Below are positions 3,001 through 63,754 of a stretch of 64,000 nucleotides of DNA, in pieces. A model generated the notes under the pieces. That model had not been told where the DNA came from, searched no databases, and saw only the letters and a program-made list of their open reading frames with translations. How positions within the stretch are numbered: position 1 is the first letter of the stretch; every line of letters begins with the position of its first letter. The stretch is from a virus: IMG/VR virus record IMGVR_UViG_3300001533_003062, positions 26,327-90,326 of that record; one strand, written 5' to 3'. Position numbers and translations under genes: made by a program.

Positions 3001-6000
3001 ATATCTCTGTTCCTTTTTCTTTAAAAGATTCCACATTTTTAACGAATTCAGATAACGTATAATGTTTAGGGTCATTGATAATATCTCTATCGTTATCATA
3101 AATAGGGTCCCTGTAATAGCTGAAAATTCTTTCAATATTGAGCTCACTCAGTTCGGGATTTATTCTATGGATTAAGTCGTATGTGATCCGTAACTCCCCT
3201 AAACCGTCAAATCCTGTGGTAGACTTAATTTCTATATTTTCTACCAAGAAATCTGAGGGGCTGGCCTTAAGGTTAAATCTTAATAGCGGGTATTCCACCG
3301 GTCCTAAAACTATGGGACCTGAATTAAGCATTTCCCGGGCTATACGCTGATATAATACGCCCCTTTCTAAGCTTATACTCCATTCTTTATATCCCTTAGA
3401 TATACGCTTATCCCAGAACTCTAGCAATTTCTTATATACCCTTGTAATCGATTTAAAGCCCCCATAATTTGATAGGGCATCTCGGGCATTATCGTACGAA
3501 GTGATTATCTCGTTGGACGCCTTATCCTCCTCATGGGTCTCTGTCGATCCCGGTTTGGTGAAAGCTTTCTCTATTACATCCGGTGTAAGAATATTTCTTA
3601 CAGAACCATACTCCTTATACTCATCCCCGTAGGTTTCGGTTAAAAAATTCATATGTATCTCATAGGCCATCATTCGAGTTAGTACCAACCTTATAGCCTC
3701 TAAAAGATAACCTTTAAATCTACTACTATCCACAAGTAACCCTCCACCATCAGGTGAAATACCATAAGATCCCGAGGAATAATCTAAGGTTCCATCTAAA
3801 AAACATCGAGCTATTTTATTGTCGAAAAGTAATAAGTCCTTATCTATAAGCTCAAGTAACTGCCAGGCCTGCTTCTCCCTTAATAGGTGCCTGAAGATAT
3901 TGTCTGGATCGTAAAAATTTTTATATTTGCGTCCAGGGATTAGCCCGTAGTCCTCTATAACATCGTTACCGCCAGAAGAATACGGGTAAAGCCAATGGTC
4001 TCTATTCTTACCTCTAAAAACTAAACCCTCGACAAAAGATCCCGCATCCTTATTGTAGGTCTTTTCAAAAGTGATGTCAGCTACATCTCCAAATCTAGGA
4101 TCTTTCTGATCAACGCCCTCTATTAAGGCGTCCATAGTGTCTGATACTTTTCTCTCCTCGAAAATATTCAAACCTTTAAGGTTGAGCTCCTTATTAACCC
4201 CAGGAGCATCCTCTTTTATAGATACATCCATAGTACCCTCGTCAGGAGAGTCTACCATCATTCTGAATAATTTATCTGGTTCTAAAAGTGCTAATAGGCC
4301 AGGTGGTAGGAAAGGAGCAAACAATAAAAATGCGGGAAGACCTTTCTTTATTTTATTTTTACCTCTTTCGTGTCCCTTGATTTCATCACCTACTATCCTA
4401 GCCCCAAAATTACCCTCATCATCCCACATGGGAAATTCTTGAGCCACACTTTTCTCAATCCACACCCTAAAACCGTCTACAGGTAAGGAATCTTGAAGCT
4501 CTCTTAAAGTAAGATAGGCATGGTAAATTCTATTAGATCCCAGCTTACCTGTAAAACCCGTATCAAAATATACCCCCGCAGGATAATAAGACCCGTCTTC
4601 CTTAAGAACCGTATTCTCTTCAACAAAGAATACCTTATAAGTAGGTATACCCCTCTCGCTAAAATAACGGCCCTTTTCTAAGGTTGAGATATCTCCACTT
4701 CTTAAGGATATTAATTCATATGGTAGCCTCTTCTGGTTTTTGGCCTGTTTGTATACGAAACTATCCTCGTCCCAATCCTTAGCCATTTCTTTAAATTCAT
4801 CCTCAGATAGCTGACGTATGTTAGACTCTTTGGTTATGTCTTCTATCTCATAGTAGGTTTTTCTCCCGTCTATCTTTATCTTATCCCCAACGCTCACCCT
4901 AGTCAAAAAATCATAGGGATTTTCCTTAGCGGAAAAAAGCTTATCTTTATCTCTTATAACCACATCATAGTTAGCTACTAAATTCGTCTCTTGTCCCTTA
5001 AGTATCCTGTAGTCGACTGTAGGCATACCATTATTCACATCATTATTGACCCATCCAGGGTTAGCCGATTTTACATAACCTACCTTTATTTTATTATATT
5101 CTATGTTGTAACAATACACATCGTTATTCAGTTTCTGCCTCTTACCAAATCTATCATAGTACTTTGGAGATGCTCCGTCATAACCAACTGGAAAAAATAT
5201 AGAGAAACCATTATCTATCTGAGCTATTTCCTCATCAGTAGTTAGTGTGTAGTTATGGTCTTCTACGCTACTATCCGCTAACTTAAATATCCCATCCTCT
5301 TTAATAACGTGCTGGCAATTACCAAACCTAAAACCCAGTATAAGTTGTAGCTCAGATGCAAAGTTCCTTAAACGATCCTTATACCACTTATAAATCTTTA
5401 AGTATATCTGCTTTTTTATTTCTTCGTCCCTTAGGAGATACTTAAGGTTCTCTATCCCCCCTTTATATACCTCGACTAGGTCATCCCCGCCGACCTCATC
5501 GCCTGAGCCTCCGCCGGAACTTTTATCCTTAACTATCTGACCTATCTCAGGAATGGACTCTATCTCTATAAACTGCCTCTCCGTTAAAGTCTGTATATAA
5601 AATTGATCTCTATTTAAAAAATCCATATAGACCTCTACGGAGCTTCCCACAGGTAAGTCCTTAAAATATCGGCAAGAACACGTTATCGATTTACCTTCTT
5701 CTTCCGGATAAGCATTTAGGCCTAGGTAGTTCAGACGGAACCTGTCATCAGTTACTAAGGGCTCCGTAAGAGATAAGCCTCCTCCCTCCACAGCATAGTC
5801 CTCGTCAGCTACTAATTTACTTTCTCCCGAAAGTAAATAATACGAGTACCCATCATTAAAATCCACCCGAGATCTAAATTGTACGGGATAACTAGTGTAA
5901 GAGATATCAGGGGAAGCTAGCAAGGTATCTAGCTCTTCCTCATTTAGAGGGACATCAAAATATACCCGCATTAGTGCCGACTCATATACACTTTCATCCA

Positions 6001-9000
6001 TATATTTTTCAATGCTCGACACCGCTCTTATAAGATCATTATTAAATCTTATGATAGATCCGGGCACCATATCGGTAAGAAAATCAGATACGTCTAACCC
6101 GTCTGGAGAAAATAAAGAAAAATTCTCTGCAGTGACATCAGTAAATGACAGACCCGAAGAAACGGATCTAAAAACAGGTAAGGTATAGGAGAAATCTGCG
6201 GAGGAGGACACCTCCTGAAGCTTTTGGGTATCTATGGGCGAATCAAAAGTCACCCTTACAACTTCTGTGCCGTCCCTACCCTCATCTACGTACCTATCTA
6301 CCCTATATATTGTCCTAAATTCTTTATTAAGCACCTTTAAAACAGAGCCTTGAATTAAGCCCCGGGTCTTATAGGCTAGGTCGTTACCTGGATCCGCGAA
6401 GGAAACACTATCCTCTTTGCCGTCTATGATAACGAGCGAACCATCAAGGGTACTGAACACAGGCTCCGTTACAGCTATATCGGAGGCCCCTGATATCATT
6501 ACCAATAGTTCCATATCTAAAGGTCTATTAAAATTTACCTTTACGATCTCTATGTTGGACCTATTTGTATCTACGTAATTTTCTACAGACTCTATATGCC
6601 TGATATCCGTATCTTTAAATTTTATCAGAGATCCTCTTACCAAAGCCTTTAAAGACCTAAAAACATCCGTACCTGGTGGAGTTGTTAGGGATAAACTACT
6701 CTCTTTACCGTCTATTATGATAAGATCCTGATTAAAGTGCTCTAAGCTTACCCATTCTGCTTCCTTGCTGACCCAAACTCCCGGCTCAACCGTGTGCTCA
6801 TTGAATTCAGGATATACCGTTATATCAGTTTTATTCTCTTTTTCATTATACTCACAGGATAATACCTTATGAAAATAGGACTCCCCCGTTATATTACTTC
6901 TATAAGCTAGCAGAGAATTCTCCTTAAGGGCGTACGATCTATCTACGTCTAATATGGTATACTTATCTTTACCTAATACCGTTCTTATTAATTTTCTCTT
7001 ATAAAGTTCCTGTATTATGCCCACTGTGTACGGTAAGCTCTCATAGACATTTTCCTCAAAGGGCTGGATAGACAGGCTCTCCCTACCGCCACCTTTTACA
7101 AAATTTACCACCTTAAAAGGCTTATAGTTCTCCGGATAATTTCCATCTAGCGCATTAAAGGTACTTACCGTATCCTCTATAGCAGCCACCAAAGAATCTA
7201 TAGTCGGATATTCACTGTATCTAAAATCGTAGCTATCCCCATTAAGGACTCCCCCTAAAGACTCGAGGAGAGATATTCTATTAGTATCGATCTGTATCTT
7301 AGCGTTTCCCTCAAAACCGTCGGGTACCGCATAATCTATTTTAAAAGCAGACTCTTCGGGATCTGTTAGAACAAATTTTTTTGTTATTAAATCGGTACCA
7401 CCTAAAGTATATATAGGCAACTCAGACACAGCGACCCCATCTTCTATGTTGCTTATAAGAGAGGGAAATATAGTAGCCTTTACTTCCCCGGCCTCTAGTC
7501 GGGATTCAAGAACGATATAGATATCTCTACCGTCCACCATCAATAGGTGATTAGAAGCCACGGACTCTAATAACTGCAGAGTATTGCCTCTAAAAGATAC
7601 AGTGTCATTGCCCACTGATATATTTTTATTTACTTCCGTACTAGGAGGTAAACTCGTCCACTCTACGCTTTTATCGAACACATAAAAAGAGGGATTATAG
7701 ATATCTTCAGGGTAGCTACCATAAAATTCCACAAAGGTGCTATTATCTGCAAAACGCACGGATTTAACTCTCAAGTAATAAGTAGCCTCTGGGGCCATAT
7801 TATCTATTCTAAGGACATCCCCGGGATAAATAATATCCCTTCTATCAAAGCCCTCGATCAAAAGAGTGTTAGACCCCTCTTCCAGCACATTATAAAGTCT
7901 TTGGATAGGTGCGTATGGGAGTATCTCACTTTCAAAACTATAAGAAACATTTACGATACTATTCCGATTTAGGACCGCTGTATTTAAGCTGTTATCTAAG
8001 GTGAGAGTCCTCTCTATATTGTCATAGGTATAACCCTCGGTATTTAATAACCTGATATCCCCGCCCTCGATCACTCTTAAATTACTGAGAGAAACCTCTT
8101 CCAAATCTCCGGAAAATTGAAATTTATCAGGGTCTCCAGATTTTTTAAATGGGTCCTCAATTACCCTAGATACTGCAGGATTAGTGACCGAAAATATATA
8201 AGACCCCTCATCAGAGACCTCTAGCGTATCATTTAGTATAGTCATCTTATAAGTAGTTTCGCTGGTATCTGACGGTTGTATCACTGTATGCAGTAAAGAT
8301 AAGGGGGTGTATATAGCCTCAATAGAATCCACCGAGGAACTTAAAACATCTGCATCGAATATTCTTATTTTACCTGTAAGATAGGATACCTCAAAATCAG
8401 CGCCCTCGGAGAGTCTTCGACTACCGCTTTTAATATCTCCACCACTCTCCTGCTGAGTCCAGTTAACGGTTAATCTCACTGTCCCGTTTAATATGGGGTA
8501 TTGGCTAAGCCTTAAGTTGTCCCCGCTTATTCTCTCTCCCTCGACATCCTTACCCTCGACATAGTACGATACAAGTACAGCTTCATCTTTTGAAAGCGGG
8601 GTATTGAACAATAGTGCCCCCGATGTGTAGTCTATTTCACACCCTTCCCCAGGGAATAAATGATTCTCCTCTCTATCTTCAAAATAAAGGGGATTTTCTA
8701 TACCTACACCAGTGAAACCCTGATCTACTACCAGCTCATTCTTATCTAATATAGTAGAATAGGGTGCACCCTTAATAATACTCATACCATCCCAAAGTAT
8801 TCTTTTTCTCGTAGCTATAGATCCTATTATCTCTTCAGAATTATAATGATCCGATAAAAAAACTACCCCTCCCGGATAATCAATCTTATAATTGTCGTCT
8901 TTTACGAGCAGATTTTCATTGACCCTTATCTCTTCCGAGTTGGGTATTATATTACTAATAGGGGTTATTAGAGGTTCTCCTCCCCCTATTTCTTTCTTTT

Positions 9001-38260: not shown

Positions 38261-38563
38261 TTACTCTCTGTTATATGTAACGCGTATCTCGGGACCAGTA
38301 AAACCTACACCATACTTATCTATATCGTGTAACCTGACACCTTTAATGGCAGAACCCTCTAGGTTATAAGTGAGAATATTGTATTCCGCACCTGTTAAAC
38401 CAAAATCCTGTCCCAATCTTTGGCTTCTGCCATGGATAGGGGTAACCTCTATATCAAAAGTTCCCGCAGGCCCTGTCGTAGGATAACCCCGAAGGGGTAT
38501 AAGACCATCCCCTGGGTTAGATATTGTACCTGTTAGGGTATAGTATTCTACAGCTATTGGCAT
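38261..38563 (-). CDS. Small structural paralogue A
   Basis: 100 residues. Shared segments with its neighbour are YTLTGTISNPGDGLIPLRGY, VTPIHGRSQRLGQDFGLTG, YNILTYNLEGSAIKGVR and IRVTYNRE. The end strand is similar to the SYxY end of modules found in the sheath and other structural proteins. The ATG directly follows the TAG of the broken exonuclease gene (TAGATG), so the two were probably translated together. Confidence 0.75.
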   Translation of the reverse strand: MPIAVEYYTLTGTISNPGDGLIPLRGYPTTGPAGTFDIEVTPIHGRSQRLGQDFGLTGAEYNILTYNLEGSAIKGVRLHDIDKYGVGFTGPEIRVTYNRE

Positions 38564-38871
38564 CTATTTATCCTTCTTTTTGTTCTTTTTATTATAGGAT
38601 TTATACCACTCTAACTCTTTTATGTGCTTCGCCTGTTCTTTTAGATAAGTATCTGTACCTGAAAAACCTATATTCTCCTCCACAAAATTATGGCACCTAT
38701 CTCTGTTACCTGATTTTTGTGGTGATCAAGTCATGTAGTTTCTGTATCAAAAAATATAGATGTCTTACCCTTTAAACGATCAAACATCTCTTTAGGGCTG
38801 CCTAAATATTTAGACGCCGCCTCCACCTGATTACCCAGATAACTTAAGACTACTTTAAATCTATCGCCCAA
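38564..38871 (-). pseudogene. Remnant of a DnaQ-like 3'-5' exonuclease
   Basis: From a TTG at 38871 (GAGAGG upstream) the frame reads LSYLGNQVEAASKYLGSP, KTSIFFDTETT, then TGA at 38733-38731, then LDHHKNQVTEIGAIIL. DxETTGL is the ExoI motif of DnaQ-type exonucleases, and the stop replaces the Gly. The frame closes soon after; a different frame then gives a plausible Lys-rich C-terminus (GFSGTDTYLKEQAKHIKELE...) ending with TAG at 38564. Motifs ExoII and ExoIII are missing. So there is at least a nonsense change and an internal deletion or frameshift. The plus-strand selfish gene starts 140 bases upstream. Confidence 0.75.
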
Positions 38872-38916
38872 AATAAACCTCTCGATTTAAGATACAACTA
38901 GTATCAAGTATGTTTT

Positions 38917-38932
38917 TATTAATAGAAAATTA
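38917..38932 (-). promoter_or_regulatory. Recurrent 16-bp promoter-like motif
   Basis: Minus strand TAATTTTCTATTAATA, 46 bases before the TTG of the broken exonuclease gene and identical to the copy at 58656. Confidence 0.5.
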
Positions 38933-38956
38933 GTATTAAAAAAGTAGATAGAATAA

Positions 38957-38965
38957 AGTATATTA
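38957..38965 (+). promoter_or_regulatory. Plus-strand AGTATATTA motif
   Basis: AGTATATTA lies 48 bases before the selfish gene's ATG. Similar sequence precedes the plus-strand genes at 61215 and 62115. The rest of the gap 38966-39012 shows nothing. Confidence 0.35.
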
Positions 38966-39012
38966 CTATAGGTGCTTAAAGACCCTTAATAACCATATGA
39001 AACGAGTTGTAC

Positions 39013-41490
39013 ATGCCGAACCGATGGACAAGCCTAGAGGACTCCTTGCTTAAGGAGATATACCCTAATAATAGAAAGTCCTTCATTGAGGAGACACTCA
39101 AAAAAGACTGGACCTGTATCAAAAGGAGAGCACAAAGACTCGGACTAGCGAGAGACCCTGATTTAGTGAATAAGGATAGAGCAGTAAGAAAACAGAGAAA
39201 AGATGCCTGGACCCCTGACCAGGAAAAGTATTTAATTGAGATATTCGAATCTAATACCAAAGAATATATTCTCTCTAAAATAGATAGGCCGTGGAAGGGT
39301 ATCCATGCCCGGGCTAAAAAACTTGGATTGACCCGAGACCTTAAAATAGTTAAAAAAGAGATGATTGAAGGCGGTAAAAAATCATTAGAGACTATGGATG
39401 GTATCTGGTCTGACCAAGAAAACTCAGTACTAAACACCTGTTACAACTGTATGCCCCGGGAAGAGCTCTTGAATAAGTTAAAGGGAAGAACCTGGTCAGC
39501 CATAAGGGCTCAGGCCTTTAAATTAAAGTTGAGACGAGACCCAGACCTCGTAAAAGAAGAGAACGCCATCTACACCAAAAAAGCTATTAATGAAAAGTAC
39601 GGAGTCGATTCTTACTATCAAACAGAGGAGTTTAAGGAGAGGTCCAAAAAAACTAATCAAGAAAAGAGAGGAGCCGACTACCCAACCCAGGACCCCGTAG
39701 TAAAAGATAAGGTAAAGAACGCGGTCTACGAAAAATACGGGGTCGATAATGTATTCCAATCAGAACTTATCAAAGAAAAAATAAAAGACACCAATATGAA
39801 CAAATACGGGGTAGAAAGCCCCCTGCAAAATAAAGAAATACTTAAAAAAGCACGAGATACTAATAAAGAAAAATACGGTGTAGAGAATCCTTTTCAGATG
39901 GTAGACAGAGTTAAAAAAGGTATGCTTGAAAAATACGGTGAAGAAATCCCTCTTCGTGTACCTGAAATTATGGAAAAGAAAATAAGAACAAATATAAGTA
40001 AATATGGATTTGGGACATCTTCTAAGAACCCAGAGGTAAAAGTCAAAATATCTGAGGCTCGCAAAAAACCAGAAGCCAAAAGAAAGGATTACGAGACCCG
40101 TAAAAAGAACAATACTTTTACCGTCTCTAAAGAAGAAATAACTTTCGGTTTATACTTAAAGAATATAGACCCTGATATAAAACACCATCATATCCATCCG
40201 GAACTTGGGCATACAATAGACTTCTTTTCTCCTAAGTATAACATTTGGATCCAATATGATGGGACATACTGGCATAGGGAGGGTAGTAGAACTTATGGCA
40301 TAGATAAGACCCAAAATGATTTAATAAAAAACCTAGTCAGATTTGATTCTGTAGAAGTGTCTGAGCATATCAAAGATAATACAGTAATAAATTTTATTAA
40401 GCACACAATAGAAGATAAGATAAAACAAAATGTAGACCTTATTATGTGCCACCAATACGCCAAGAAATTGGAGCACTATACCGAGGATGTAAAAGGCCTC
40501 GATTTCAATCCTAATAATATAAAAGCCTCAGACATCTCCTATCAGTTAAGCCCCTTGGATAGTAATATAAGATTCTTCATAAAAAAATATGAGTGGCTAG
40601 GAACGATAGGTAATAGCCCTAAATGGTGCTTTACAGCTAAATTTAGAGATATTCTTGTAGGAGTACTTCTTATTAACGAGCCTAACGCTTATTCAAAGAT
40701 GTTAGGCAAGGACACACCCAAGTATGAAGCTCTTATTCAAAGGGGAGCCACTATATCCTGGGCGCCTATAAATACTGGTAGTAAGCTTATTATGTTCGCT
40801 TGTAAATGGATGGTCAATAATACCGACAAAAGATTGTTCGTGGGTTATGCCGACCCGGCTGCCGGTGAGAGAGGCACAATCTATAGGGCATGTAATTTCT
40901 ATTACATAGGGAACAATTTCGGAAACACTCGGGTATACCACCACTCGAGCATGCCCAAGTTATTCACTTACCAAGACCTAAATAGGACAGCTTCTTTTAA
41001 AAGATGGTGCAAAGATAATCATATAGAACCTGAAAAAGAGTGGTTCAAAGAGAACGGATTCAAAGATATTTATAAGATACCTCAGGAGATCAGAACTAAG
41101 TGGACGCTATGGAAAAAAAATCTGATAAATAATTCGGATACTATAGAGTTAGCGCCTAAGATGAAGTTTGCACTTATTCTAGGTAAAAATAAAAGAGAGC
41201 TTAAGTTTTTAATGTCCTTAAAAAACTTTGAGGTAAAAAAATTTCCTAATAATCGTAGTACCAGCGGTTCCGTTTGTACACCTAAAAGTATATCCGTTAA
41301 AAACAAGGCAAAAATCAACCATGGAAAGACATCAGATAGAAAAAATCCCGAAAAAATTAAATTTATAACAGAAAACCACGGAAAAATGAGCCGAGAGGAC
41401 CTCTCGAAATATCTTAAAGAAACCCCGAGATGGGTTAAGAGACAGATAGCAAACCTTATAAAGGTCGGGGCTATCACCCCTAAAAAGTAA
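39013..41490 (+). CDS. Selfish nuclease: Myb repeats, KYG repeats, EDxHD-type nuclease and Mom/GNAT-like domain
   Basis: 825 residues from the ATG at 39013 (a TTG six bases earlier is possible). It is the only long plus-strand gene. In order: three Myb/SANT-like repeats (about 3-175, ending RAQRLGLARD, RAKKLGLTRD and AFKLKLRRD); six or seven copies of a KYGVDNxxQ repeat (195-335) as in homing-endonuclease DNA-binding regions; a Vsr/EDxHD-like core (375-425) with HTIDFFSPKYN and IQYDGTYWHR; a Mom/GNAT-like domain (480-660) with KRLFVGYADPAAGERGTIY; and a C-terminal helix-turn-helix near 794. It ends one base from a convergent gene. Target site unknown. Confidence 0.8.
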   Translation: MPNRWTSLEDSLLKEIYPNNRKSFIEETLKKDWTCIKRRAQRLGLARDPDLVNKDRAVRKQRKDAWTPDQEKYLIEIFESNTKEYILSKIDRPWKGIHARAKKLGLTRDLKIVKKEMIEGGKKSLETMDGIWSDQENSVLNTCYNCMPREELLNKLKGRTWSAIRAQAFKLKLRRDPDLVKEENAIYTKKAINEKYGVDSYYQTEEFKERSKKTNQEKRGADYPTQDPVVKDKVKNAVYEKYGVDNVFQSELIKEKIKDTNMNKYGVESPLQNKEILKKARDTNKEKYGVENPFQMVDRVKKGMLEKYGEEIPLRVPEIMEKKIRTNISKYGFGTSSKNPEVKVKISEARKKPEAKRKDYETRKKNNTFTVSKEEITFGLYLKNIDPDIKHHHIHPELGHTIDFFSPKYNIWIQYDGTYWHREGSRTYGIDKTQNDLIKNLVRFDSVEVSEHIKDNTVINFIKHTIEDKIKQNVDLIMCHQYAKKLEHYTEDVKGLDFNPNNIKASDISYQLSPLDSNIRFFIKKYEWLGTIGNSPKWCFTAKFRDILVGVLLINEPNAYSKMLGKDTPKYEALIQRGATISWAPINTGSKLIMFACKWMVNNTDKRLFVGYADPAAGERGTIYRACNFYYIGNNFGNTRVYHHSSMPKLFTYQDLNRTASFKRWCKDNHIEPEKEWFKENGFKDIYKIPQEIRTKWTLWKKNLINNSDTIELAPKMKFALILGKNKRELKFLMSLKNFEVKKFPNNRSTSGSVCTPKSISVKNKAKINHGKTSDRKNPEKIKFITENHGKMSREDLSKYLKETPRWVKRQIANLIKVGAITPKK

Positions 41491-41491
41491 A

Positions 41492-42382
41492 TTACATAGA
41501 GCCCGCTCCGCTCACATAGTTTCTTCTGGACTGTATCCCTGACCTTGAGAAAGGCCCTAAAGCAGATTGCAGACCTATTCCGTACCTCGGCTGCTGAAGC
41601 CCCTTTATTATCTTTATGGATCTCTTAGCAAGTTCAAGTCCCTTCTCAAACTCTCCCCAGAAGTTATTCTTCATTGCCTCATATTTAGAGGATTTCTCTA
41701 TGCTAAGACTTACCCCCGATACGCTGTAGTCAAACTCGTCAGCGATCCAGTTCATAGCAAGCGCAGCACATGCATACCCTGCTGCACGCATCAGGATGAG
41801 CGTAGACCATCTAGTGGGCATACTCTTGATAGTTACACCGGTTACTGGAGGCGCCATATTAAACGAGTCTATACCCATCAGTATATACTCATAGAGTTCT
41901 TCATCTTCCCAGATGTAGCCAAATACCTGTGTCTGGTTCTGGATAAAATTTTCTGTTGATGGAGGTCTAAACCGGTAATTCCTGTCCGGATTATTGTCTC
42001 TTAGCATGATCCTGAGTCTTCTTATTAGCCCATCCTCAAAGTCGTTACCTGTTATAGAAACGACCATATCTTCTCCAACTATATTAAACTCTTGGACTAC
42101 CTCTATGAGAGGGGATGTGGGAGATTCTCTGAAGTTCCACCGTACCAACCAATCTCCGATGTTTGCGTCAAGTGGTATAGTAGAGTTCACGTGGTACTGG
42201 CCGACGCCAGTAGTCGAAGGTATTCTATCCTGATCTCCTATAAGTACCTGTATACCTGTTGTATTATCAAATAGAGAATAAACTATGTAGTAGGGATCTG
42301 TAGGCGTACCCGCCGAATCCCTTATTACGATCTTAAGATCGTTCTCTGTTAGAATCTGCCCTTTTTTATAAGCTACGCCCAT
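41492..42382 (-). CDS. Structural protein, neck/head-tail type
   Basis: 296 residues. An Ig-like N-terminal domain (about 1-105) has GQYHVNSTIPLDANIGDWLV followed by RWNF, a pattern shared with the 137-residue protein at 43343. After VVSITGNDFEDGLIRRLRIM comes a helical domain with a hydrophobic helix (ILMRAAGYACAALAMNWIAD) and a basic C-terminus with Arg, Gly, Ser and Gln. This looks like an adaptor or neck protein; not proven. The gene's 3' end is only one base from the end of the plus-strand selfish gene. Confidence 0.6.
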   Translation of the reverse strand: MGVAYKKGQILTENDLKIVIRDSAGTPTDPYYIVYSLFDNTTGIQVLIGDQDRIPSTTGVGQYHVNSTIPLDANIGDWLVRWNFRESPTSPLIEVVQEFNIVGEDMVVSITGNDFEDGLIRRLRIMLRDNNPDRNYRFRPPSTENFIQNQTQVFGYIWEDEELYEYILMGIDSFNMAPPVTGVTIKSMPTRWSTLILMRAAGYACAALAMNWIADEFDYSVSGVSLSIEKSSKYEAMKNNFWGEFEKGLELAKRSIKIIKGLQQPRYGIGLQSALGPFSRSGIQSRRNYVSGAGSM

Positions 42383-46286: not shown

Positions 46287-49200
46287 TTATACCTTATAAT
46301 GTATAAACCAGTTTGATGGGACACCTGTATCAGGATATTCCACATACTCAAGTCTAAAACCTTCTTTACCTCCCCAAAAAGACTTAATTAGCTCCTCCGT
46401 GGGAGTCCACAAGTGTTGCTTGTTCTCTTTATGGTCTTGATCAGGCAGAGATATTAAAATACCTTTAGTGGCTATCTTCTCCATCTTATCTATGTATACC
46501 GGTATGGAGTCTAAAGGCACGTGCTCTAGAGTCTCAAAACACAGCACGGCATCAAAAATATCTGAAATAGAAACCTCATCAAAAGCCCCTTTATGTACCT
46601 TATATTTCTTATTATTCTTTACAGCATATCTCTCAGCTGATAAGGCTAGGCCCTCTATGAATTCTACACCCTCTACATCGTAGCCCTTGTCGATAAGAAG
46701 AAAGTCCAACCAGCCATCATAAGAGCCTACATCCAGTACTTTTTCCGCACCTAAGTCCTCTAGGACCTCTAAAGCCTTTGTAAAGTGCTTATTATCTCTC
46801 TTATTACCTATGTGAGCCTCAGGTACAGGTAGATAACTTTCAGGGATTGTAACCTCGTGATTAGCCCTTATTTCCTCTTTAGTACTTACAGGAAATTCTA
46901 GCCCAAACTGCCTCATCCAGCCTTCAGCAATATTATCCCAAGAATACTCTAGCATCTTATTATAAGCTTTCTCGGACCATTCTTTAGTAAGCTCTTCGTC
47001 CTTAAGGAGCTTAATAGCAGCTTCTATAAAAGATTTTTGATATTCTTCTGAGTGGCTATCTCCATCAATAAGCATGCCTGAGCTACCTACTGTAGTCGTA
47101 AGGCCTGCAAAGTTAGAAGAAAGAATAGCGTTTTTAGCTAAACCGTTCTCCACCGCAGATATACAAAAACTCTCAGAGAACCACGTGGGATAGAGCCACC
47201 ACTTAGATTCCATCTGGTACCTAGCAAGTACGTCCTTCGATACTCTATCTACGTACTCTACTCCAGGCTGTTCCATCGATTTCTTTATTTCTTGGATAAA
47301 AGCCATACCCTTTTCGTCGCCTCTAGCTTTTACGGCTGACTCCCAGTTGTAGAACCCATAAGCTACTATGAGCTTAAGATCCGGACAAGCCTCCCTAAGC
47401 TTAGGGAACATCATCAGAAGCTCATATAAACCTCTATCAGGGCTAGAACTATAAACAATCTGGTTCTTCTTCTCAACCTTATCTACATCTTTATAAAGAT
47501 CAAAGTTAACCCCGTTTGCTGTGAGGAACATCTTATCTTCCGGCATATTGTGGTGCTGTTTTAAGAAATCTTTGTGCCACTCAGAAAGATAGCCGTAACC
47601 ATCTGTTTTCCATGCTAATATATCGTAATTCTTATCATGATTCAACCATATGTCATGTATCATGACATAACGCCTCATAGCGTGTATACTGTGCTTAAAA
47701 GGTTCTACGGTACGGGAACTTATAAAGTAATCTATTGCCTCGCACTTAAGATCTTCTAGCATGTGCGCATGGTGCCTATATGCTACGTACCCCTTACCCA
47801 CACCCAGGGTCTCTCTGTATAAAGACTTATCTACATCATACTCCTCTTTAAGGTATACGCCTCTATCTTTCTCAGGCAAGTCGTTATAGATAATTACACC
47901 GTACCCTCTCCTGGCAAAAGCAATAGCTAAATAAACCGCCCAGGTCTCTGAACCTGCCATACCTTTATCTACCTTCTCCTTGTCCCAAGGCTCCCATGCG
48001 GGTCCCGTATAAATTACTATTTTTTTGTATTCCCATTTTTTGTGGTATATAAGATGATTTAACTTGTCCTCTTTAGCATATTCTTCCCTATCTTCTACCT
48101 CATAAGCACCCCTGCTGATCCCTCCGAAATGATATACAAAAGAGTCTATTGCCTGACCTATCCTATAGCCAAAAGAGGTCAACCTTCTACACAGATCCAA
48201 ATCTTCGCAACCGTTTTTGTAGTTGGTATCAAACAAACCCACCTCGTTTATAGCGCTCCGTGCAAAAACTGTGGCATATGCCGCCACCCATTGCTGCTCA
48301 ACGAATTTGCCTGATAAGCTCTTATTAGAATCATCCATAAAATCGTAGAGTTCATCTATATAGGGTTTTACCTGATCCATTTTCATCCCAGGTACTAACT
48401 CTAATCCACTCTTATTTAGCCTCATATTATATGAAGGCTTACCAGGAATGCCGTGTAACCAACCTCTATCGCAGTTAGAAAGTACACCACAAGCTGCCAA
48501 CCTACTTTCTGTATCCATTTTTTTAACAATATTCTCTAACCAGCCTTTGGAAACTACCATATCCGAATTCAAGATAGCAAAGTACTTCGAATTAGAAGCA
48601 GCTATACCCGCATTACAAGCCTCTGAAAAATTAAGGCGTTTATCAGGACTACCTAGAATAGTCATACCTTTTAGAGTCTTTAGATATTCCCAGGTCTCTT
48701 CGTTGCTTCCTGCATCCGATATTATGATTTGGAAAGGATATATAGTCTTCAAAAGTATAGAGCTTACAAACAATTTTAGGTACTCTACGTTATTATAGTT
48801 CGTTATGATAAGATCTACAGGTTCTTTAAAATTACTGTCCACACTTACATCCTCTAAAATCTTAGACCTCTTTTCAACTAATAGCCCTTTAAACAAATCC
48901 GTGTACTTACTCAACATAGCATCAGAGGTATATGCCGACGCCGTGATATAAGCATTCTCCCCTATATTCTTTCTAGTCTTAGAGTCTTTTAATTTTTTTA
49001 ATACCTCGGTCCATTCCTCTATCTTATCACAGATGAAACCGTTAACCCCGTGCATCACTGTTTCTTTATAAGAGGGTAAGGGGGAGCATATTACGGGCAT
49101 ACCTAAAGCCATAGCTACTGAAGCTTTTACGTTACTCTTTGCGGGCTGCACGTCCACCCTTTGAGGGCATAGTACGACATCACAGCTCCTCATATCATCA

Positions 49201-51014
49201 GACCAAGTATTTAGATCCCATTTTATATCCGCATCCTCCCACTCGGTTATAACTACTAATTCATAACCCGCCTCTTCTATCGCTGGTTTCAAATGCTCTT
49301 TTACTAAAAAACTATTCCCACCCATTCCCATGTAGAGTGCTTTAGGTTTCTCATACCGGTCACCATATTCTTCCTCAGGCCTCTTTTCATAGAACTCTAC
49401 GATATCAGAGATTACATCAGTATTAGAGAAACCTTTCTCATTTACCATATCAGATAACTTAGTAGAGCAACAGATAATTTTATCTGCTTCTCGCATACAA
49501 TCTAAAATACTAGGGTGGTCGAAAACAGCTTCACATTTATCTAATAAGATTTTCTTGCCTGATGCTTTAAAGTCTCGTATCAATTCTAATTCTAAATCTC
49601 CAGAATTTACAAAGACTACTATGTTAGCGTCTCCTACCGCATTTATAGTATTTTTAAAACCTAACATATGGTAATCAGATATTATCTTACTTTTCACTCC
49701 CCGGTCTCTCAATAAAGCATCGACATTGAGCCTTCGTATACGTGTAGCGGGGTCATTATAATTTTTAGCGGGGACTAGCCATGCCACCTCTAACTCCCTT
49801 TTACGGTAGAGGTGCACCTCTGCATGATCCCCTGTATTAGACTCAAGAAGCATATCGTATCCTTCTGAGTCTAATATCTCAACCAATTTATCCAAATCTT
49901 TTATAGTGGGTTCTTTATCCCTCACAGATATTTCTAGCTCTGACCTCTTTTTAACTTCCTGCATCTGAGCGTGATCGGGTTTATCTTTTAACGCTATAGA
50001 AGAATACTTAAGTGATTTATCATAATCTTTCTTATTCATATAAATAAGCGCTAGGTTAGCCGCAGGAAGAAAAGAATAGAAATCCACTAACTGAGACATT
50101 CCCGCGTCCATCTTTTTCCCTAGAGCATCCTGATAGTACTTTACGGCTATTTCCTCCTGGCCTTGTCTTTGAGCTATATCCCCCAATACTACAAAATTTT
50201 CAGCATAAGACGAGTTAAATTTAATGCCCTTCATGGCGTAGGTCTTAGACTTGTCAATATCGCCCTCTGAGAAGTAATACCTAGAGACTTTTATAGAGGC
50301 TACCGCCAGATTATCCTTATATCCTTCACCCTTATCCAAGTATTTCTCCAACACCTCTAAGCCTCTCTCCCAATCTCCTGTATCTATAAGCTCTTTCCCG
50401 TAATAGAATTGGGTCCTAGGGGATGGGTCCGGTTTTTCATACTGATCTTTCAATAAGCTAAGATTCCTATCAGGGTCAAAAGGCTTAACACGATAGTGGT
50501 GTATTTTCGCGCCCTCTAATTTATAGATATTTTGAGAGGTATCCATATTGAGATATTCATGTATAGGATCATGCCAAGATATATGATCACAGTTCTTAAC
50601 GATGCGTTCTCTAGGAAGGACTACTATGGGGTTGTCGTCGTCATCATGAGCATAGATATAATCCATTAAAACCATATCGTACTTATATAAATCTTTTTTC
50701 AGATCCAATATCTTCTGATAATCTTCTGGTTTTACAACATCATCAGCATCTAGCCACATTATATGTTTACCGCGTGCTTGGCTAAAATTGTAATTACGAG
50801 CTTTCCCAAAATCTCGACACCACTCAAAATAAGAAACATTATCAGTGAATTCCTCAGCAACCTTTCTTACCTCACTATCTCCAGACGTAACAGTGATAGC
50901 TATGTCGTCGAATAAATTACCTTGGATACTCTCAAGGCACCGTCTCAATTCCTTAGATTCTCCAGGACCCACTATTATACAAAGGGAAAGATCCCTATCT
51001 AAAACTTTTTCCAT
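46287..51014 (-). CDS. 1575-residue multi-domain glycosyltransferase/methyltransferase
   Basis: Domains in order, rough positions: GT2 glycosyltransferase (8-190; SLCIIVGPGES, a GKHIMWLDADD motif); TPR-like helices (200-380; YYFSEGDIDKSKTYAMKGIK); GT4-like domain (400-720; KASVAMALGMPVICSPLPSY); second GT2 (735-1010; PVDLIITNYNNVEYLKLFVS, KYFAILNSDM); a second GT4-like region (1035-1390; KGMAGSETWAVYLAIAFARR, a KWWLYPTWFSESFCISAVEN-like segment); and a SAM methyltransferase (1430-1575; AEKVLDVGSYDGWLDFLL, CFETLEHVP). Such fusions build and cap an oligosaccharide. A likely target is a virion protein or host glycan; not determinable from sequence. Confidence 0.9.
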   Translation of the reverse strand: MEKVLDRDLSLCIIVGPGESKELRRCLESIQGNLFDDIAITVTSGDSEVRKVAEEFTDNVSYFEWCRDFGKARNYNFSQARGKHIMWLDADDVVKPEDYQKILDLKKDLYKYDMVLMDYIYAHDDDDNPIVVLPRERIVKNCDHISWHDPIHEYLNMDTSQNIYKLEGAKIHHYRVKPFDPDRNLSLLKDQYEKPDPSPRTQFYYGKELIDTGDWERGLEVLEKYLDKGEGYKDNLAVASIKVSRYYFSEGDIDKSKTYAMKGIKFNSSYAENFVVLGDIAQRQGQEEIAVKYYQDALGKKMDAGMSQLVDFYSFLPAANLALIYMNKKDYDKSLKYSSIALKDKPDHAQMQEVKKRSELEISVRDKEPTIKDLDKLVEILDSEGYDMLLESNTGDHAEVHLYRKRELEVAWLVPAKNYNDPATRIRRLNVDALLRDRGVKSKIISDYHMLGFKNTINAVGDANIVVFVNSGDLELELIRDFKASGKKILLDKCEAVFDHPSILDCMREADKIICCSTKLSDMVNEKGFSNTDVISDIVEFYEKRPEEEYGDRYEKPKALYMGMGGNSFLVKEHLKPAIEEAGYELVVITEWEDADIKWDLNTWSDDMRSCDVVLCPQRVDVQPAKSNVKASVAMALGMPVICSPLPSYKETVMHGVNGFICDKIEEWTEVLKKLKDSKTRKNIGENAYITASAYTSDAMLSKYTDLFKGLLVEKRSKILEDVSVDSNFKEPVDLIITNYNNVEYLKLFVSSILLKTIYPFQIIISDAGSNEETWEYLKTLKGMTILGSPDKRLNFSEACNAGIAASNSKYFAILNSDMVVSKGWLENIVKKMDTESRLAACGVLSNCDRGWLHGIPGKPSYNMRLNKSGLELVPGMKMDQVKPYIDELYDFMDDSNKSLSGKFVEQQWVAAYATVFARSAINEVGLFDTNYKNGCEDLDLCRRLTSFGYRIGQAIDSFVYHFGGISRGAYEVEDREEYAKEDKLNHLIYHKKWEYKKIVIYTGPAWEPWDKEKVDKGMAGSETWAVYLAIAFARRGYGVIIYNDLPEKDRGVYLKEEYDVDKSLYRETLGVGKGYVAYRHHAHMLEDLKCEAIDYFISSRTVEPFKHSIHAMRRYVMIHDIWLNHDKNYDILAWKTDGYGYLSEWHKDFLKQHHNMPEDKMFLTANGVNFDLYKDVDKVEKKNQIVYSSSPDRGLYELLMMFPKLREACPDLKLIVAYGFYNWESAVKARGDEKGMAFIQEIKKSMEQPGVEYVDRVSKDVLARYQMESKWWLYPTWFSESFCISAVENGLAKNAILSSNFAGLTTTVGSSGMLIDGDSHSEEYQKSFIEAAIKLLKDEELTKEWSEKAYNKMLEYSWDNIAEGWMRQFGLEFPVSTKEEIRANHEVTIPESYLPVPEAHIGNKRDNKHFTKALEVLEDLGAEKVLDVGSYDGWLDFLLIDKGYDVEGVEFIEGLALSAERYAVKNNKKYKVHKGAFDEVSISDIFDAVLCFETLEHVPLDSIPVYIDKMEKIATKGILISLPDQDHKENKQHLWTPTEELIKSFWGGKEGFRLEYVEYPDTGVPSNWFIHYKV

Positions 51015-62926: not shown

Positions 62927-63754
62927 CTAATTAAAATTCTCTAAGAAGTCCAAATATAAGGACTGGTCGCCTGCCACCCGGTAGAGTTCTTCTCTGTATG
63001 GAGCATACTTCTTACCCTTGTTAAAGAGTCTTTTTAGTCTGCTCATGTGGAGATGGCCCGCTATCTTACCGTAATCATAAAACGATAACGCCTTGCCCTC
63101 CTCATAGCATGTTTTTAAGTAAGACTCAACATTTGATCTAGGTTTTTCATATCCTTTTTTACTATGCTTAACGACCCTCTGAAGGCCCATCTCTCGGACC
63201 CATCGACTTATTACAGGTTCTGATTTTTTGTACTTTTCACACAGGCCGCCGTAGGGCATACCAGCTTCATAATCTTTTTTGAATTGGACAGGGTCTTCAG
63301 GGTAGGATTTTTCAGGGGGAGGGCAATTGAATACCTTACCATACCTCTCTTTCAATGTTTTTAATCGCTTATCAATTACTTCTGGAGCGGCACAAGAATA
63401 TGCTACCCCGTATTTTTCTATATTAGTCTTTTCCCTCTGCTCCTGATTAGTATAATTAGGGTCTCCATACCGTTCTAGCTTAGTCTGCTCACCCTTTTCA
63501 CGTACCCTAGGGTCCTTAAGAGGGTGCCCGCCTTCATAAACGCTATACATTAACCTTCGGGCTTCTTCATTCCTCCAATTAGGATCACCATGTTTTTCTT
63601 GGGTAGTATCCTTACGTTTTTCTATAACGCTATGGGATATTAGAGGACTGTTATACTTACTATAATATTCTTCTTTGCTCATATCATGGTGATTCTTTAT
63701 GTGCTGAGAAATATCCAATCCTGAAAAGCCACAAATTTTACACTCTACACTCAT
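62927..63754 (-). CDS. Zinc-finger protein with KYG repeats (homing-endonuclease type, nuclease core not seen)
   Basis: 275 residues. MSVECKICGFSGLD with SQHIKNHHDMSKEEYYSKY is a CxxC...HxxxH finger typical of phage homing enzymes. Four short repeats then follow with K(Y/H)G at their core: QEKHGDPNW, LERYGDPNY, IEKYGVAYSC and KERYGKVFN. The last half has a helix-turn-helix (MPYGGLCEKYKKSEPVISRW) and a basic end. No HNH, GIY-YIG or EDxHD core is visible, so it may be a DNA-binding derivative. The KYG repeats link it to the nuclease at 39013. Confidence 0.7.
   Translation of the reverse strand: MSVECKICGFSGLDISQHIKNHHDMSKEEYYSKYNSPLISHSVIEKRKDTTQEKHGDPNWRNEEARRLMYSVYEGGHPLKDPRVREKGEQTKLERYGDPNYTNQEQREKTNIEKYGVAYSCAAPEVIDKRLKTLKERYGKVFNCPPPEKSYPEDPVQFKKDYEAGMPYGGLCEKYKKSEPVISRWVREMGLQRVVKHSKKGYEKPRSNVESYLKTCYEEGKALSFYDYGKIAGHLHMSRLKRLFNKGKKYAPYREELYRVAGDQSLYLDFLENFN

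Follow-up and report, generated by a model that had tools for sequence, protein, structure and literature searches.

Homing endonucleases are normally thought to spare the genome that hosts them, since their own insertion destroys the site that they cut. The Hef protein of the T4-like phage U5 is a homing endonuclease reported to cleave nrdB (PMC2988022). In Hef-like homing endonucleases (PHROG 3339/559), the C-terminal domain can be aligned to classic Mom (hhalign, 98.4%), and a model of the Hef-type domain has Mom as its best PDB match. Of 50,697 phage records, 375 contain a member of the Hef/PHROG_3339 family; its loci with a Mom-like GNAT C-terminus include L133, L111, L131, L150 and others, and the domain is named by neither Pfam nor PHROG. 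Because Hef-type domains vary at the Ser position, not all of them need be active. Differently named are the Mom-REase fusions of jumbo phages described by Iyer et al. in 2021, who reported five momylating enzymes in PA5oct and predicted a role in restriction, the word 'homing' occurring 0 times in their paper (PMC7824862). PA5oct holds exactly five places that match the Hef C-terminal domain, and the best of them is annotated as a Hef-like homing endonuclease. This agreement in both count and phage suggests that the names Hef homing endonuclease and Mom-REase fusion refer to the same proteins.

The locus analyzed here lies in a 64,000-nucleotide stretch, hereafter the window, taken from a virus record of 90.3 kb. 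It encodes a protein with a KYG array, an EDxHD nuclease and a C-terminal Mom-like GNAT in the same order as in Hef-type homing endonucleases. Unlike these, it adds Myb repeats and a terminal winged helix, and its Mom domain belongs to another clade (hhalign probability of 4% between the A6C and WM profiles). It matches the Hef family PHROG 3339 in part only and the C-terminal domains are not close, so that it represents a sibling architecture rather than a member. It shares with the jumbo-phage Mom-REase fusions the presence of Mom and nuclease in one chain, but no same-site methyltransferase counterpart is described for them (PMC7824862), unlike what is found at the window site. The initial annotation regarded this combination of domains as unfamiliar, a view that does not hold, since Mom-REase fusions were published in 2021 (PMC7824862) and the Hef family also carries a Mom-like GNAT. 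What is new here is the shared insertion site, the methyltransferase counterpart and the cassette swap.

The fusion gene and its genomic setting

The fusion gene (39013..41490, + strand) encodes 825 aa arranged as three Myb-like repeats, a KYG array, an EDxHD nuclease, a Mom-like GNAT and a winged helix. The start codon may be the ATG at 39013 or a TTG at 39007, with the frame open to the stop at 41490, and residues are counted from the ATG. The gene lies on the + strand, while the surrounding virion-region genes are on the - strand. It starts 449 bases past the gene at 38261..38563 (- strand), from which it is separated by an AT-rich leader (38564..39006, 32% GC). At its other end, its stop codon falls one base short of the end of a convergent gene of the virion region, 'nb' (41492..42382, - strand, 296 aa), whose 3' end forms the edge of the putative homing site. 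When the entire protein was used as a single query against viral contigs, there were zero matches, and phmmer against the PDB gave none either; the homologue scans used Mom-like sequences in one case and the nuclease in the other.

The N-terminal half consists of predicted DNA-binding modules. The three Myb-like repeats (residues ~5-44, 66-105 and 132-172; 39025..39528, + strand) appear as three-helix units in the AlphaFold2 model, with pLDDT values mostly above 90, and match PHROG_323 (3e-9), while Pfam Myb gives sub-threshold matches only, in relatives. They are followed by an array of six KYG repeats and one KRG (39580..40062, + strand; DUF7487, 9e-30). Both modules had been proposed from the letters of the gene alone, and both are borne out. 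The array also matches phage PHROGs annotated 'homing endonuclease' (2e-23 and 1e-21). The initial domain list lacked the C-terminal winged helix (residues 771-825; 41323..41487, + strand), which proved important: it is common to the LAGLIDADG-methyltransferase proteins found at the same site, which are 44-53% identical to it across 55 aa (E 5e-10 to 7e-14).

The nuclease and the Mom-like domain

The EDxHD/Vsr-like nuclease core (40108..40428, + strand), which had likewise been predicted, contains TIDFFSPKYNIWIQYDGTYWH, with E375, D403, H421 and D431 invariant across seven relatives; these acidic and His residues are conserved candidate ligands for a metal. The core matches that of the Hef-type nucleases at the profile level (96.5%), and the Hef-type profile in turn matches I-Bth0305I (3r3p, 1.1e-6). 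A profile built from the nucleases of the window, L010 and L011 finds no PDB relative by direct search; a probable link to a solved EDxHD nuclease runs through the Hef nuclease. I-Bth0305I may thus have a related nuclease core, but it is intron-encoded, unlike the window gene, and the 105-residue 3r3p chain comprises the nuclease core only.

The nuclease is followed by the Mom-like GNAT domain (40444..41247, + strand), whose assignment as a Mom/GNAT-type domain is upheld by several lines of evidence. It matches Pfam PF25680 (9.4e-11) at 42.2 bits, over the curated cut-off of 27.1, and PHROG_1384 'Mom-like' (3e-13), and reaches 99.3% in hhalign. GYADPAAGERGTIY falls inside the domain, which also contains a YADP motif, and the YADPAAGERGTIY motif (40846..40884, + strand) aligns with FADERCGRAGVVY of Mu Mom. 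In the AlphaFold2 model, built from 41 sequences, this region folds as a Mom/GNAT; the mean pLDDT of the model is 85.7, with values of roughly 90 and above in most parts of the Mom domain. The top Foldseek match in the PDB is 8bv8, the Mom of phage Mu (E 1.1e-6; target-length TM 0.66). S590 and D614 are invariant in all 41 fused and stand-alone sequences, together with 20+ further residues, and align with the NSEA and FAD of 8bv8. More precisely, S590 aligns with the residue that is Ala in the crystal of the inactive S124A mutant (chain position 115 of 8bv8, assuming a numbering offset of +9) and D614 with the Asp of FAD. The domain thus shares with Mu Mom (8bv8, PF25680) the GNAT fold and the aligned Ser and Asp positions, but differs from it by an identity of ~15%, a fused nuclease and a longer C-terminal extension. 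It also differs by its motif: the classic H-Y-S of Mom is not matched, E-W-L being found instead in the window and in the whole clade, hereafter the EWLG clade. As judged from sequence, the window domain is a divergent clade of the Mom superfamily rather than a classic Mom. Given this replacement, the exact chemistry may differ and the product may not be that of Mu.

Occupied and empty insertion sites

The architecture of the window protein recurs in seven proteins (window, L010, L011, L090, L092, L093 and L095), and an eighth full-length homologue of this type (L201) comes from a short contig that was assigned to the bin of a KSB1 bacterium. At all seven loci with readable flanks (window, L010/L174, L011, L090/L170, L092, L093/L169 and L095/L195), the EDxHD-Mom fusion gene stands immediately past the stop codon of nb, on the opposite strand. 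Empty sites exist as well: in L175, 16 bases separate the nb stop from the ATG of the next gene, the counterpart of 38261..38563, and in L171 nb and the gene that follows it overlap at their ends. In L172, this nb-flanking site holds a gene for a uracil-DNA glycosylase (5943-6647).

The phages of L090 and L093 offer a direct comparison of two occupied alleles. They share 96% identity in the 3.9 kb that precede the fusion gene and in the 2.4 kb that follow it, while in the gene itself the segment from the late KYG array through the nuclease, the Mom domain and the C-terminus is swapped for a divergent allele. The nuclease and the Mom domain were therefore replaced together, as one block. The nb tree, built from fetched nb relatives, is weakly resolved, so that repeated gain of the EDxHD-Mom gene is not proven and presence at the same site could be partly vertical; the viral contigs compared at the nb site may also be incomplete.

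In several homologues of nb, the reading frame is extended by an insert close to codon 219 (L195 5001-6533, L177 3069-5451, L192, L193 and L196), and those of L195 and L177 match intein splicing domains. Group I/II introns were considered near the site, and no Rfam match was found in eight loci. Together with the splicing-domain matches, this identifies the nb inserts as inteins rather than RNA introns, and their presence in nb makes the region a hot spot. The nb gene of L177 resembles a 'fractured gene', with a Vsr-like endonuclease lying between the intein halves.

A LAGLIDADG-methyltransferase counterpart at the same site

The same insertion site also houses genes of another type, on the nb strand (L173 5968-8253; L176 5939-8194; L177 5532-7820; L225 4501-6777; L224 3-1571). 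These five genes encode proteins of about 750-762 aa, the L224 gene being cut by the contig end, so that only its later part is present, next to a homologue of the 38261 gene. The products begin with a winged helix like that of the window C-terminus, followed by a LAGLIDADG nuclease and an N6/N4 DNA methyltransferase, in which the motifs DPCAGWGGR and TSPPY are present. In those that were scanned, LAGLIDADG (PF03161) is over the cut-off in two of three and N6_N4_Mtase (PF01555) in three of three. All four readable loci are adjacent to nb. In L177, a truncated Myb-KYG remnant is kept next to the LAGLIDADG-methyltransferase gene, and the long tail of the L092 fusion protein can be aligned to residues 1-180 of the LAGLIDADG proteins (1e-27), so that the two types may have a recognition module in common. 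As read from their domain matches, two unrelated nucleases are present at one site, each with a predicted DNA-modification domain. A limited literature search of titles and abstracts found no LAGLIDADG-methyltransferase fusions, and an earlier report is possible.

Recurrent fusion of nucleases and Mom-like domains

A second group of fusions (L019, L021, L029, L032, L034, L063 and L120) combines KYG repeats and a PD-(D/E)xK-like core (PDFY...IEIK) with a Mom-like domain of the same clade, which also includes about 45 related stand-alone proteins. In the Mom-domain tree, each of the fusion groups forms a clade of its own (support 100/99 and 100/98), with stand-alone genes between the two. A single origin of all EWLG-clade fusions was considered and is rejected when they are constrained to one clade (AU p=3.8e-7). 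It follows that nuclease-Mom fusion arose at least twice in the EWLG clade, besides the widespread Hef family. In the PD-(D/E)xK sister group, dN/dS is about 0.11-0.23 for the nuclease and 0.15-0.16 for the Mom domain, which shows that both domains are under purifying selection in these fusions.

Stand-alone EWLG-clade Mom-like genes are also found in genome contigs (L202-L219), many of them from Bdellovibrio-like bacteria. The 96 neighbours of viral and genomic stand-alone genes include 5 integrases and 4 AdoMet decarboxylases; some nucleases and DNA methyltransferases are present among them too, a raw count of neighbours that is no more than suggestive. In the Geobacillus phage PK3.6 (L002 2514-3696) and the Synechococcus phage DSL-LC03 (L003 2493-3663), the Mom gene overlaps an upstream nuclease gene (HNH; annotated type II REase) and forms a two-gene version of the same pairing.

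Possible roles of the modification domain

The initial annotation suggested a modification-restriction or homing device, and the homing reading gains support from the site-specific occupancy, the empty sites, the cassette swap and the purifying selection acting on the domains of the sister fusions. Its further idea, that one chain could both cut and modify DNA, is a prediction strongly suggested by the recurrence of the fusion and by the LAGLIDADG-methyltransferase at the same site. We consider it an even proposition that the gene encodes a free-standing, site-specific homing endonuclease carrying its own DNA-modification domain, which shields its own genome. In such a model, the protein would be anchored to a long target, situated at the nb/38261 junction or close to it, through its Myb repeats, its KYG array and its winged helix, as the modules shared between proteins of this site suggest. 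In phages without the gene, the EDxHD domain would cut this target, and repair by recombination would then copy the gene in, consistent with the occupied and empty alleles. The Mom-like domain would acyl-modify bases in or near the target, probably at adenine N6. The modified resident genome would then be spared by its own nuclease and by the same-site rival, while unmodified competitor DNA would be cut.

The position of the gene bears directly on this proposal. Since the gene lies just past the nb stop and the conserved 3' end of nb is intact in carriers, a target located there would survive the insertion alone, and would presumably have to be masked chemically. The target may also span the junction and be destroyed by the insertion, in which case self-protection would be unnecessary. 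The site is shared with an unrelated nuclease, and each of the two comes with a modification enzyme, which argues for a role of modification in the homing strategy.

A second reading, which we hold to be doubtful yet deserving of some weight, is that the Mom-like domain is cargo that modifies phage DNA broadly against host restriction, while the nuclease merely spreads the gene and the targets of the two domains may differ. Phages commonly encode stand-alone members of this enzyme clade, indicating that the domain is useful without a nuclease, and Mu Mom is described as a general anti-restriction enzyme (PMC6483171). Furthermore, in a set of 13 records, the fusions account for all matches to the Mom family (six of six carriers, none of the seven others), so that the fusion is the only such match in phages that carry it. 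However, the exchange of nuclease and Mom domain as one block, and the presence in the second same-site nuclease of its own, different modification domain, fit a coupled pair better than random cargo.

It is unlikely that the protein is primarily a restriction-modification weapon, which would modify the phage genome and degrade host or superinfecting DNA at many sites, with homing as a by-product. This is how Iyer et al. (2021) read the Mom-REase fusions of jumbo phages (PMC7824862), and nuclease and modification in one chain is the design of type IIG restriction-modification enzymes. Compared with these, the window protein has different folds, long DNA-binding arrays and a homing-like insertion. 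The fixed site, common with another class of homing endonuclease, and the long tandem DNA-binding array indicate rare, long targets instead, and the Hef relatives are known homing endonucleases (PMC2988022). Still less likely is a Mom-like domain acting only as a non-catalytic DNA-binding or DNA-bending module of a homing endonuclease, as the E-W-L that replaces H-Y-S and the varying Ser of the Hef type might suggest, given the identity of the candidate catalytic Ser and Asp and of many other residues in fused and stand-alone proteins, the comparable strength of purifying selection on nuclease and Mom domain in the sister group, and the recurrent capture of the domain together with a methyltransferase counterpart.

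Beyond this locus, we regard as a real though less than even possibility that self-protecting homing endonucleases form a convergent class, in which EDxHD, PD-(D/E)xK-like and LAGLIDADG nucleases are combined with two Mom-like clades or an N6/N4 methyltransferase, and in which target modification replaces target disruption. Homing would then work like a mobile restriction-modification system, also excluding same-site rivals, and if some homing endonucleases do carry a modification domain, homing and restriction-modification would be the two ends of one continuum. The finding opens the way to a direct test; it also suggests a predicted function for a large, mostly unexplained C-terminal domain, present in 375 phage records, and provides candidates for enzymes that modify bases or cut rarely.

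Two further genes of the window deserve mention. Near its right end, a second KYG/DUF7487 ORF of 275 aa (62927-63754, - strand) is possibly another homing endonuclease or a remnant of one. A 1575-aa ORF (46287-51014, - strand) combines several glycosyltransferase domains with TPR repeats and a methyltransferase.
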